Assembly: GCF_014647475.1 (NCBI RefSeq)
Contig: NZ_BMPG01000001.1
Span: 372,001 to 436,000 of the forward strand
DNA from: Halocalculus aciditolerans
GTDB lineage: Archaea; Halobacteriota; Halobacteria; Halobacteriales; Halobacteriaceae
Direction: 5' to 3'
Length of the DNA stretch: 64,000 nucleotides
Below the pieces are notes generated by a model that ran no database searches, was not told the origin of the DNA, and worked only from the letters and a program-made list of their open reading frames with translations. Position 1 is the first letter of the stretch. Each line of letters starts with the position of its first letter. The position numbers were made by a program, and so were the translations under genes. This document shows positions 48,979-52,837 of this stretch, one piece after another.

Positions 48979-49042
48979 TAGTTGCGAAAGGGCTGAGTCA
49001 GAACCCGAGGGGTTATCCCGGTCACCCACGAACCCGCGAGTG

Positions 49043-49663
49043 ATGGGAGTCCTCGAGGACAAAGCGCGAGCGCGGACGTTCTACCGCTATCTCTCGCGGG
49101 TCTACGACACGGTGAACGCGTACATCTGGAACGCGGAGATGCGGGACGAAGCCCTCGACTGGTTCGACGCGGACGCGGACGACCGCGTGCTCGACGTCGG
49201 CTGCGGCACGGGCTTCGCCACCGAGGGCCTCCTCCAGCACACGGAGGACGTCGTCGGCCTCGACCAGTCCGTCCACCAGCTCCAGAAGGCGTGGGCGAAA
49301 CTCGGGAAGCACGACCCGGTCTCGTTCACGCTCGGGGACGCCGAACGCCTCCCCTTCGACGACGACGCGTTCGACAAGACGTGGTCGTCGGGGAGCATCG
49401 AGTACTGGCCGAACCCCGCGACGGCGCTCGCCGAAATCCGCCGCGTCACGAAGCCCGGCGGCACAGTGTTAATCGTCGGGCCGAACGAGCCGCACACGTC
49501 GGTCGGGCAGTCGCTCGCGGACGCGATGATGCTCTTCTACGACGACGAGGAGGCGGACGAGATGTTCCACGACGCCGGCTTCGAGGACGTCGAACACCGC
49601 TACCTCGGCCCGTGGTACAAGCCCGACATCGCCATCGTCTCTATCGCCACGGTCCCCGAGTAG
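49043..49663 (+). CDS. SAM-dependent methyltransferase, UbiE/MSBQ-like
   Basis: A class I methyltransferase of 206 residues with motif I VLDVGCGTGFATEGLL, VGLDQSV (motif II), LGDAERLPFDDDAFDKTWSS (motif III region) and RRVTKPGGTVLIVGPNE. It resembles the quinone-ring methyltransferases related to plant MSBQ/MPBQ methyltransferase, so a role in menaquinone methylation is plausible. The ATG at 49043 is preferred to the GTG at 49040. Confidence 0.82.
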   Translation: MGVLEDKARARTFYRYLSRVYDTVNAYIWNAEMRDEALDWFDADADDRVLDVGCGTGFATEGLLQHTEDVVGLDQSVHQLQKAWAKLGKHDPVSFTLGDAERLPFDDDAFDKTWSSGSIEYWPNPATALAEIRRVTKPGGTVLIVGPNEPHTSVGQSLADAMMLFYDDEEADEMFHDAGFEDVEHRYLGPWYKPDIAIVSIATVPE

Positions 49664-50134
49664 TCAGCCGACGCGGACGCGGGCGACGGCGATTCGCTGC
49701 TTCTCGACGAACAGTTCGACTGTCACGGTGTCGCCTCGCTCTGGGAACGGCGCGTTCGTGCGAGCGACGCGGACGCTCGCGGTTTCGCCGACCGACCACC
49801 GCGGGTCGGCGTTCCGGTTGAACGGGCCGGTCGGCCCGCCCTTGAACCCCGACGCGGCGAAGAAGGGAACCGGTGGTTGGTCGGCCAGCGGCCGGCCGTC
49901 GACGCCGATGCGGACGCCGAGTCGCCGGGCGTCGAGCGGGCCGCCGGCGGTGAGCGTGAGCGCCACGCGGCCGCCCGCGGACGCGTCCGCTGTGACGCCG
50001 ACCGGCTCCGCCGGCTGCGGGAGGGCGAGCGCGGTCGCGCCGGCGACGACGGCGGCGAGGCAGACGCTCACGGCGACGAGCGAGACGACCGCAATCGGGC
50101 CGGTGGCGGCGCGCGACCCGCGGCGGGGAGACAC
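49664..50134 (-). CDS. type IV pilin-like / DUF1628 protein
   Basis: A 156-residue protein with a short basic start (RRGSRAATG) followed by one hydrophobic helix (PIAVVSLVAVSVCLAAVVAG) as in haloarchaeal pilins of the DUF1628 type, whose prepilin peptidase cuts just before the helix. The rest is a single beta-rich domain (VGVTADASAGGRVALTLTAG). It may be a minor pilin or an adhesin. It lies 22 bases after the secreted-protein gene on the same strand. Confidence 0.7.
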   Translation of the reverse strand: MSPRRGSRAATGPIAVVSLVAVSVCLAAVVAGATALALPQPAEPVGVTADASAGGRVALTLTAGGPLDARRLGVRIGVDGRPLADQPPVPFFAASGFKGGPTGPFNRNADPRWSVGETASVRVARTNAPFPERGDTVTVELFVEKQRIAVARVRVG

Positions 50135-50156: not shown

Positions 50157-51377
50157 CTACGTAAGCGTTGAGACGGTCACGTTGTACTGCTCGCCCTCCC
50201 GGAACGCGGTGACGTTGTACGTCCCCTGGGGGGAGAGCGCCCAGAGCTCGCCGTCGGTGCCCGTCTGTCCGACGGTCGTGCCGTTGATGCGGACGCTCGC
50301 GTCGAGCGGCGCGCCGGTCGCGTTCGTCACGGCCACGCGGAGCGGTCCGCCGGCGTACGTCCGATTCACCCAGAGCGTCCGGTTGTCGTGACTGTCACTC
50401 ACCGACGGGCCGGTGGGGAGCGAGGAGAGGTACTGGTACTGCGTCTCGCTGTACACGTTCGTCGTGTTCGCGTCGATGAACGCGACCAGCCGCCCGTGGT
50501 TGTGCGTGATGTCGGCGGTGTAGGCTATCTGCCCCCAGAACCGCTGGTTGCGCCGGTGGTTGTTCTGCCCGGACTGATTCCACCCCCACGGGTAGGCTTC
50601 CTGGAACTGCTGTTGGCCCTCGGAGATGGTGTCGATTGTGCCCTGCGAGCCGGTGAAGGCGTCGGCGTCGACGGCCTCGCGGACGTAGGTGTCGTCGTCG
50701 ATGGTGGCGAGCGTGAACCCGCTCGCGGTCGCGGCGACGTAGATGCGCGTCGGCGGCTGGTCGTCGCGGATCGCCGCGGCCGCGCGCTCGCGGACCGGGC
50801 CGGTGAGCGTCGCGAGGTGCGCGTTCGCCTTGCCGAGCTCCACGCGGATCGACTGCGCGTTACGGAGCTGGCGGGCGCGCGGGAAGGCGTCCTCGACGAG
50901 GCGGTTCACGCCGCGAGCGCGCGAGTCGACGTACGCCATCGTCTGGACGTACTCGGTCGCGGTGAGTTCACCGGCCGCGTACGCCCGCGTCGCGTTCTGT
51001 TGGAGGCGTTCGAGCTCGTCGATACGGGCGTTGATTCGCTCGGTCTCGTTCTCGAGGACGGCGCGTCTGGCGTCGGCGGTAGTGGCGTTCTGCCAGCGCT
51101 CGTCGAACTCGTAGGCGGCGAGCGCGTTCCCGCCGTCGCCGGTGCCGATGCGGACGGCGCTCGTGAGCGTGAGCGAGGGTTCGACAGTGGTGGCGCGCGC
51201 CGCGCCGTCGAGGACGAGGACGTCGGTGGTGTTCTGTGCGGGCGAGACGAGACGTGGCGTCTGCCCGACCTCGTTGTCGACGTTCGCGTTCGGGGTGGTG
51301 CCGCCGAGCGAGACAGCGGCTACGGGGAGGGCGAGGACGAGGAGGGCGACGACGAACGCGGGGACCAACCGCGGCAT
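50157..51377 (-). CDS. secreted haloarchaeal protein, unknown function
   Basis: A 406-residue protein with an N-terminal signal peptide (LVPAFVVALLVLALPVAAV), a helical region (about residues 100-200, rich in Arg, Glu and Asn; ENETERINARIDELERLQQN) and a C-terminal beta domain with carboxypeptidase-regulatory-like sequence (GAPLDASVRINGTTVGQTGT). There is no C-terminal anchor. It is divergent from the membrane-bound HTH regulator at 51496, and I recall related gene pairs in other haloarchaea. A leaderless start at 51377 is supported by the TATA box at 51402-51408. Confidence 0.7.
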   Translation of the reverse strand: MPRLVPAFVVALLVLALPVAAVSLGGTTPNANVDNEVGQTPRLVSPAQNTTDVLVLDGAARATTVEPSLTLTSAVRIGTGDGGNALAAYEFDERWQNATTADARRAVLENETERINARIDELERLQQNATRAYAAGELTATEYVQTMAYVDSRARGVNRLVEDAFPRARQLRNAQSIRVELGKANAHLATLTGPVRERAAAAIRDDQPPTRIYVAATASGFTLATIDDDTYVREAVDADAFTGSQGTIDTISEGQQQFQEAYPWGWNQSGQNNHRRNQRFWGQIAYTADITHNHGRLVAFIDANTTNVYSETQYQYLSSLPTGPSVSDSHDNRTLWVNRTYAGGPLRVAVTNATGAPLDASVRINGTTVGQTGTDGELWALSPQGTYNVTAFREGEQYNVTVSTLT

Positions 51378-51495
51378 ACGTCTGACGGATACGCACGCGA
51401 ACATAAAAACCCACACGGAAGTCCGGGCCGCTCCGTTCATCGTGGTGTCATGCCGATGGAAAGCGTTTTGCCGCGACGGGGAGCACTCACACGTA
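51378..51495. promoter_or_regulatory. divergent promoters of secreted protein and membrane regulator
   Basis: A minus-strand TATA TTTTTATG (51400-51407) is 25 bases before the secreted-protein ATG. On the plus strand, an AAGCGTTTTG element (51461-51470) is about 28 bases before the regulator ATG. Both mRNAs would be leaderless, and the shared region is small enough for one regulator to control both. Confidence 0.55.
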
Positions 51496-52578
51496 ATGCG
51501 GCAGGTCGTCTGCGTCGCCCTCGTCCTCCTCCTCGCGGCCACGGCGCCCGTGGCAGCGGCCAGCGCCGACGCCGACCCCGGGCCGAGCGACATCGTCATC
51601 GGCGTCAACGTGCACGAGAACGGCGACGCCACGTGGAACGTCACCGCGACGTACCCGTTGAACTCCTCCACCGACCGCCGGGCGTTCGCGCGCTTGAGCG
51701 ACGAGTTCACGCGCGGCGGCGACGTCTTCGTCCAGCCGGGCGTGTTCGAGTCGGCGGCGAGCACGGCGAGCGAGCGCACGGGTCGCCCGATGTCCGTCAC
51801 GGACGTCCGCTACGGCACTGACGTCCGGAATCGGACGGGCGTGAACGCGACCGGCGTGTTGACGCTGAAGTTCCGGTGGAACGGCTTCGCGAACGCGACG
51901 GCCGGGAACATCACGGTCGGCGACGCCTTCTCCGGGTCGCTCCTCGGCGACCTCACCGAGCGGGAGACGCTGTACATCGCGCCGCCCGATGGCTATCGGC
52001 CGCTGAGCAGCAGCTCGTCCGATCAGGTACGGAACGGCGCGATCTACTGGACGGGCCCCTACGAGTTCGCGAGCGGCGGGCCGAGCGTCCAGTTCACCGA
52101 GGGGTCGGGGCCGCTGTTCGGCGGGTTCGGCGCGGTCGCGGTGCTCGTCGTGCTCGCGCTCGTCGTCGGCGGCGCGGTCGCGTACGTCGTCGTCGGCCGC
52201 TCCGACCGCGACCTCCCGGGTCTCGGCTCGACGTCGGACGCGCCACCGGACGAAGCGTCGGCGACGGAACCCGACGAGGAAGCCGCCGAGGAGCCCGACG
52301 GCGACGCCGAGGCGGCGGGCGGCGGGGCCGCTGGCGCGGCCGGGGCGGCCGGTGATTCGGGCGTCGACGAGGAGCTGCTGAGCGACGAGGAGCGCGTCGA
52401 ACGCCTCCTCGAAGCCAACGGTGGCCGGATGAAGCAGGCGAAGATCGTCGAGGAGACCCGCTGGTCGAACGCGAAGGTCTCCCAGCTCCTCTCCAGCATG
52501 GCGGAGGAGGGCCGCGTCGAGAAGCTCCGCATCGGCCGCGAGAACCTCATCAGCCTCCCCGAGGAAGCCGAAGAGTAA
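51496..52578 (+). CDS. membrane-spanning one-component regulator (extracellular sensor, TM, wHTH)
   Basis: A 360-residue protein. It begins with a signal peptide (1-22, VVCVALVLLLAATAPVAAAS), followed by an extracellular beta domain (about 25-205, with IVIGVNVHENGDATWNVTAT and several NxT sites). A TM helix lies at about 213-236, then an acidic Ala/Gly-rich linker, then a winged HTH (about 292-355, LLEANGGRMKQAKIVEETRW then SNAKVSQLLSSMAEEGRVEK). The layout resembles haloarchaeal DUF7345-DUF7343 proteins (numbers from memory). It would sense an external or envelope signal and act on DNA from the membrane. The divergent secreted protein is the obvious candidate target. Confidence 0.78.
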   Translation: MRQVVCVALVLLLAATAPVAAASADADPGPSDIVIGVNVHENGDATWNVTATYPLNSSTDRRAFARLSDEFTRGGDVFVQPGVFESAASTASERTGRPMSVTDVRYGTDVRNRTGVNATGVLTLKFRWNGFANATAGNITVGDAFSGSLLGDLTERETLYIAPPDGYRPLSSSSSDQVRNGAIYWTGPYEFASGGPSVQFTEGSGPLFGGFGAVAVLVVLALVVGGAVAYVVVGRSDRDLPGLGSTSDAPPDEASATEPDEEAAEEPDGDAEAAGGGAAGAAGAAGDSGVDEELLSDEERVERLLEANGGRMKQAKIVEETRWSNAKVSQLLSSMAEEGRVEKLRIGRENLISLPEEAEE

Positions 52579-52837
52579 ACGGCGGTCTCTGGTTGCTCCC
52601 CGGTGCGACCGCTAGCGTCGGCTATCGATAGGCGTCGAATCCTCGTGGGGGACTCCGTGTCGAGGCCTGGCCCCGACGCCCTTCGCGCGCTACTCACACC
52701 CACGAAACCCGCAAACAACGAAATTCTACGAGGCCGATATGGCATCGAGAGTTAGCTCGACGTGTGGCTTCGGTTACAGTGGTAGATGTGCGTGGTTTCG
52801 AAAACGTTTACCGGCCCGCGGCGGGAGTTGTTCAGTG
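52579..52837. other. intergenic region before etfB
   Basis: No gene is visible. A TATA-like AAAACGTTTA at 52801-52810 is at the correct distance for an etfB transcript starting near 52832. A ten-base palindrome CTATCGATAG lies at about 52621-52630. Confidence 0.45.

Follow-up and report, generated by a model that had tools for sequence, protein, structure and literature searches.

The gene at 51496..52578 (+) encodes a predicted transmembrane DUF7345-DUF7343 one-component regulator of 360 aa, and it is arranged divergently, in nearly all genomes of its class that were compared, with a gene for a secreted DUF7096 protein. Both genes lie in the window, the whole stretch of 64,000 nucleotides analyzed here. 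In the reading proposed here, the regulator acts as a one-component transcription factor tethered to the membrane and may work with the secreted partner as a co-component pair; we give this reading an even chance of being correct. The range beginning at 51378 in the initial annotation comprised the 118-bp intergenic region and the regulator ORF.

From its N-terminus onward, the regulator is predicted to begin with a signal peptide, which is followed by the exported DUF7345 domain; a single TM helix then leads, through an acidic linker, to the DUF7343 winged HTH. In Pfam, DUF7345 (PF24036) matched aa 37-167 (E 4.5e-36, 124.3 bits vs a cut-off of 27.5) as the core of the exported sensor, aa 32-202 (51589..52101, +), and DUF7343 (PF24034) matched aa 294-355 (52375..52560, +; E 1.8e-30, 105.0 bits vs a cut-off of 27.6). 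The AlphaFold model (mean pLDDT 79.6) contained an N-terminal helix (2-15), a confident sensor (32-202), a TM helix (212-233; 52129..52194, +) that was also found by hydropathy, a low-confidence linker (234-290) and a confident winged HTH (297-353). The linker, aa 234-293 (52195..52374, +), was assigned as disordered from its low pLDDT and was net acidic across the orthologues, and the winged HTH was additionally supported by VIA-align and by near-invariant residues across 71 regulator orthologues. When a simple hydropathy rule was applied to 139 regulator orthologues, an N-terminal hydrophobic segment was found in all 139, a TM-like segment ahead of the HTH in 138, and a hydrophobic stretch within the sensor in none. 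An Arg or Lys was located within 8 residues past the TM-like segment in 133 of the 139. Prediction and comparison together show a topology with DUF7345 outside, a single TM helix and the winged HTH inside, so the exported sensor, single membrane span and cytoplasmic winged HTH claimed in the initial annotation are supported by Pfam, by the model and by the hydropathy of 139 orthologues. A predicted TM region and a DNA-binding domain thus occur in one protein, as in transmembrane transcription regulators (TTRs). The closest named relatives found were from Halarchaeum, with 47-48% identity. The same genome encodes another membrane regulator (L003:1315-1938(+)), in which two N-terminal hydrophobic segments, apparent by eye, precede a DUF7343/MarR-type HTH without an exported domain. 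For the sensor, the best 20 Foldseek rows had TM-scores of only 0.15-0.27 by query length and VIA-align of the regulator model tested mostly the HTH, and therefore no fold was assigned. A sequence search of solved structures gave no significant match, the lowest E values being 0.25 and 0.11.

The TM-to-HTH linker was net acidic with a median length of 63 aa in the 139 orthologues, and a linker of this length could also serve signaling by release, in which processing of the ectodomain would detach the HTH from the membrane, by analogy with regulated intramembrane proteolysis, and the partner would block or trigger the cut. In a TTR survey (PMC10269533), shielding from proteolysis is among the roles described for proteins associated with bacterial regulators. 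Such a linker fits tethered action equally well, however, and we regard release as highly improbable.

The partner gene (50157..51377, -) encodes a protein of 406 aa and is separated from the regulator gene by the divergent 118-bp intergenic region. The domains DUF7096, DUF7094 and Fn3_arc were all found above their Pfam cut-offs. The N-terminus was signal-like in the window partner, a hydrophobic segment was present there in 138 of 139 partner orthologues, and a further TM-like segment was found in none of the 139; the three domains and the N-terminal segment bear out the earlier description of the neighbor as a divergent secreted protein. The model of the partner was of high confidence (mean pLDDT 90.4) and consisted of a helical bundle, an alpha/beta domain and an Fn3 domain. 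The best VIA-align rows were STAT cores with Z about 11, a likeness that was rejected since this value is within the chance level for helical bundles, and Foldseek gave no match at E<=0.001. A YpeB C-terminal row (Z 8.7, rmsd 4.0, 116 aligned) was taken as a hint only. Outside the class, at L198, where the DUF7345 ORF was cut by the contig end, the neighboring DUF7096-like protein (L198:672-2417(-)) also carried PepSY domains. With a YpeB PepSY chain among the structural rows as well, the middle domain of the partner may be PepSY-like.

To compare the arrangement of the two genes, 145 genomes of the class from 58 genera were used. Both families, DUF7345 and DUF7096, were present in all 145, so that their presence or absence is uninformative within the class. 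The pair was adjacent and divergent in 132 of the 134 genomes having both matches among those listed. Loci were fetched for these 132 genomes, for the four separate loci of G029 and G067, and for eight further DUF7096 loci, seven of which contained the divergent pair while the eighth (L167 of G129) ended at a contig border. Both genes were thus carried by 139 loci, on opposite strands in all 139, and the start-to-start spacing, measured after the promoter motif had been used to correct the start codons, ranged from 96 to 382 bp (median 158) and was divergent throughout. With one more divergent pair in G116, the tally over the 145 genomes was 140 with the divergent pair, two with the genes apart (G029 and G067, both genes retained in each), two without the pair and one cut by the contig end. 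In G021, one of the two without the pair, an HTH-less DUF7345 gene was accompanied by a DUF7096-type gene in tandem, and in G128, the other, both families were present but unlinked. That the pair is conserved is close to certain, and on this genome comparison a chance arrangement is excluded; failure to co-occur in other genomes, which had been named at the outset as a ground for refutation, was not observed. Such near-universal conservation suggests that the pair acts as a switch reading the outside of the cell.

Downstream of the partner gene, with a gap of 22 nt, was a type-IV-pilin-like gene (49664..50134, -). Pilin_N matched the window protein with E 0.068, below the cut-off, whereas 53 of 56 aligned members of the family matched at E<=0.01, the window protein being among the three misses. 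The assignment as a pilin-like gene following the secreted protein gene, which had been made from the window alone, is therefore weak for the window protein itself and firm for the family as judged from its alignment. A copy was located on the strand of the partner in 128 of 139 loci, and none was detected in the other 11. The pilin-like gene is abutted by a convergent SAM methyltransferase gene (49040..49663, +; Pfam), which is a conserved neighbor in 135 of 139 loci, and etfB was found within the fetched stretch in 87 of 139 loci. The methyltransferase neighbor is about as conserved as the pair members, both genes of the pair survive separation in G029 and G067, and core-promoter-like elements were found on both sides of the intergenic region, one of them also at a GTPase gene. 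These observations could mean that the pair is an old head-to-head arrangement of constitutive envelope genes, and that the HTH regulates distant genes with its neighbors outside the circuit. We consider this improbable, since linkage of the same two protein families recurs in different clades and in different arrangements.

The evidence for this recurrent linkage came from 17 paralogue loci, a non-random sample made up of the second regulator of the own genome and 16 second matches among those listed. A DUF7096-type ORF was present in 15 of them, adjacent on the same strand in 13, divergent in one (L187) and distant in one (L182, same strand, about 1.7 kb away and cut by the locus end), and was missing at L175 (own genome) and L185. 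Four additional class paralogues comprised L216 with such an ORF and L202, L204 and L215, which join L175 and L185 as the class paralogue loci without one. These ORFs were detected mainly with a profile of the orthologous partners; Pfam DUF7096 was found in six of the seven that were scanned (E 2e-7 to 1.7e-3), L178 being the exception, and the match exceeded the cut-off in L195 alone. Additionally, HTH-less DUF7345 genes adjoined a DUF7096-type ORF in five of six complete cases (L187:25-732(-), L190:4794-5498(+), L216:2076-2798(-), L195:1390-2148(+) and L197:3381-4007(-), the last outside the class). No DUF7096-type neighbor was found at L199, an HTH-less DUF7345 gene outside the class. At L187, L190 and L216, the HTH-less DUF7345 gene, the DUF7096-type gene and an HTH regulator gene formed a three-gene cluster, and the HTH-less protein of L195 had a sub-threshold PGF-CTERM tail. 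A sensor-domain tree of 54 sequences supported the divergent orthologues (98/97, 25 sampled), the main paralogue clade (99/99, 11 sequences) and an HTH-less clade (100/100, three sequences), with deep branches unresolved; the paralogue of the own genome fell into a partnerless clade together with L202 and L215. Outside the class, DUF7096 was missing from 18 of the 20 DUF7345 genomes tested (one more, G153, was left out), and a DUF7096-type ORF was found at none of the 10 fetched HTH-regulator loci (L200, L206-L214), which indicates that a regulator of this type can exist without the partner. The link between DUF7345 and DUF7096 thus appears, from these gene neighborhoods, to be wider than one divergent promoter, yet not universal.

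Co-variation was analyzed in 80 representatives having all genes. The distances of the sensor and the partner were correlated with r=0.77, and the partial correlation given the methyltransferase distances was 0.61. Under the same control, the values were 0.41 for the sensor and the HTH of the same protein, 0.41 for the HTH and the partner, 0.36 for the sensor and the pilin, and 0.38 for the partner and the pilin. That the sensor followed the partner more closely than it followed its own HTH supports a putative contact between the two proteins outside the cell, although the correlation may partly reflect similar evolutionary rates of two exported domains. Because of this correlation and the linkage in other DUF7345 clades, a link between the proteins is favored over a merely shared promoter.

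The intergenic region was searched for promoter elements and operators. The conserved element GATGGAAAGCGTTTT (51455..51469, +), which resembles a core promoter of the BRE+TATA type, ended with its last T 26 nt before the regulator ATG. EM over the 139 loci, seeded with a consensus written by eye, produced SGATRGAAAGNGTTTT upstream of the regulator, a motif of 28.8 bits over 22 columns, and none of the 139 loci had a best site below 10.7 bits. The exact ATRGAAAGNGTTTT occurred in 111 of the 139, its last T lying 19-30 nt from the regulator ATG. In random-start EM with 86 representatives under 65% identity, the best 16-mer reached 24.6 bits at the regulator promoter vs 13.3 at the partner promoter, 14.9 at the methyltransferase promoter, 13.8 at the pilin promoter and 6-7 in shuffles. 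The etfB promoter, with 21.5 bits (n=47), was nearly as conserved as that of the regulator (n=86), and the 20.6 bits for etfA (n=47) probably came from etfB coding sequence. The etfB block, TTnCGAAAnCGTTTAC, was located at 52796-52811 of the window, about -41, with its 21.5 bits spread over 16 columns in 47 representatives. On the partner side, the TATA-like TTTTTATG (51402..51409, -), 25-32 nt before the partner ATG, corresponded to a TTTTTGTA block in the orthologues; this block alone was seen by EM, and no operator was found at the partner promoter. The one Rfam match to an RNA element was far below the gathering score.

The exact pattern of the regulator element was found in 115 of 145 genomes, and the backwards pattern gave five matches over all 145. 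The element stayed with the regulator in the split-pair genomes G029 and G067. In the own genome, the exact pattern occurred once, and up to two mismatches gave seven matches vs six for the reversed pattern, so that no wider regulon was seen there; no copy was seen before paralogues or outside-class regulators among those displayed. In 14 of the 15 genomes examined with a second exact copy, this copy preceded the start of a GTPase gene at about the same distance (L300, L302, L303, L307-L310, L312, L314, L316, L319-L321 and L326), and in the remaining one it preceded an IclR-type gene. The three GTPase proteins scanned contained Pfam MMR_HSR1, its extension and TGS, and we take the gene to be DRG-like. 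The GTPase promoter of the own genome carried the related element GAGGAAAGGGCTTT. Since the GTPase gene has the same element at a similar distance, a private autoregulatory operator was rejected, and the conserved element GATRGAAAGNGTTTT reads, from its sequence and position, as the core promoter of the regulator, presumably a BRE+TATA core promoter of leaderless genes. Promoters of TGS-type GTPases contained a CATGGAAAGNGTTTTTCG-like element at a fixed distance from the ATG, nearly identical to that of the regulator, although the two genes are unrelated.

Further upstream of the regulator core motif, GAC-N0/1-TTT elements were found at 26 sites in 19 of 86 representatives, the window being among those without them, and 23 of the 26 sites were placed at -34 or -14/-13 from the core motif (shuffles averaged 1.55, maximum 4). 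None was found on the partner side in the 86 representatives. Masked EM of the remaining intergenic sequence recovered the same GAC-type element (13.4 bits vs 8.8-9.0 shuffled, 65 sequences). In L046, L052, L076 and others, GAGACNTTTYA and GACGTTTTAT stood about 20 bp apart, at -34 and -14 of the core motif, and may be tandem binding sites for some regulator of the regulator gene.

These elements, present upstream of the core motif in part of the class, together with the short 118-bp intergenic region of the window and the divergent orientation of regulator and supposed target in 140 of the 145 genomes, fit an explanation in which the partner and the pilin are mere targets; the tethered HTH would sense something else outside and control the divergent operon through the shared intergenic region. 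However, most partners at paralogue loci stand in tandem instead of facing away from the neighboring gene over a common promoter, the search of the partner promoter turned up no operator, and the upstream elements were confined to 19 of 86 representatives, excluding the window. The occurrence of HTH-less DUF7345 proteins beside DUF7096-type genes, and the sharing of the conserved element of the regulator with the GTPase gene, also speak against this explanation. We judge it unlikely, although it is compatible with a co-component pair, and it is no more likely that the partner is a target than that the link is a physical or co-sensor one.

Transmembrane one-component regulators are already known, and what is new here is one that is paired, across the class, with a secreted protein and accompanied by a pilin-like gene. 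TTRs likewise combine a TM region and a DNA-binding domain in one polypeptide, and about 56% are single-pass (PMC10269533); a point of difference is that the HTH of the regulator is C-terminal, behind a signal peptide and the exported DUF7345. The survey text contains neither "halobacteria" nor "haloarchaea", and the sole archaeal protein among the characterized TTRs of its Table 1 is ArnR. ToxR/ToxS and TcpP/TcpH also consist of a tethered HTH regulator and a genetically linked protein, and linked proteins of this type are described in the same survey as contributing to the signaling of the regulator by blocking proteolysis or stimulating heterodimers (PMC10269533). A genetically linked second exported protein accompanies the haloarchaeal regulator in 140 of 145 genomes and 15 of 17 paralogue loci. 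Compared with ToxS and TcpH, the partner is larger and secreted, has an Fn3 domain and no second TM segment, and is encoded divergently. PsaE and MyfE, bacterial tethered regulators listed with an associated protein, control fimbriae (PMC10269533, Table 1), which gives a precedent for the pilin-like neighbor. By analogy, the nearest archaeal precedent is ArnR of Sulfolobus acidocaldarius; ArnR and ArnR1 are membrane-bound one-component regulators that act on type-IV-pilus-like surface structures (PMC6396743). The HTH of ArnR is in the N-terminal region according to PMC13286277, whereas that of the regulator is C-terminal, which places the regulator outside the ArnR type, and Table 1 of PMC10269533 gives no associated protein for ArnR, in contrast to the regulator with its partner.

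A literature search for DUF7345, DUF7343, DUF7096, DUF7094, PF24036, PF24034 and PF23379 found no mention in the papers searched, COG2512 matched two papers, both unrelated, and the accessible portion of the CsmR paper (PMC13286277) does not mention the regulator gene. Both families are present in the Haloferax volcanii control genome. HVO_0306 and HVO_0307 turned up in glycoprotein tables only (PMC8241124), where no function is given in the excerpts: HVO_0307 is an N-glycoprotein with 3 sites, 201 PSMs and a Sec SPI signal, and HVO_0306, annotated as a "probable transmembrane glycoprotein/HTH domain protein", has one candidate O-glycopeptide. From this annotation and the adjacent gene numbers, which resemble the pair described here, we infer that HVO_0306 and HVO_0307 are probably its Haloferax volcanii version. 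A match in PMC6801745, in the excerpt retrieved, appears to mean HVO_A0307, an Lrp-type gene, and not HVO_0307.

Taken together, a functional link between the regulator and the partner is very likely. In the co-component reading, the secreted partner would bind or gate the DUF7345 domain outside the cell, and this contact would set the state, dimerization or stability of the tethered HTH. Of the promoters on which the HTH would then act, that of the regulator itself and that of the divergent partner/pilin operon are the most plausible, and the result would be local feedback acting on a surface component. The chances of direct ectodomain pairing are about even, and control of the neighbors by the HTH stands at a similarly balanced level. 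A broader and more tentative possibility is that DUF7345 and DUF7096 form an undescribed archaeal receptor-ligand module, in which secreted DUF7096 docks on the DUF7345 ectodomain, and in the main version this ectodomain drives the tethered winged HTH. If true, the whole class would have in this module an archaeal equivalent of ToxR/ToxS, connected with a pilin-like surface gene. Outside-sensing by tethered transcription factors is little explored in archaea, and the pair, near-universal in the haloarchaea examined, is a potential general model that would give a first function to DUF7345, DUF7343, DUF7096 and DUF7094.
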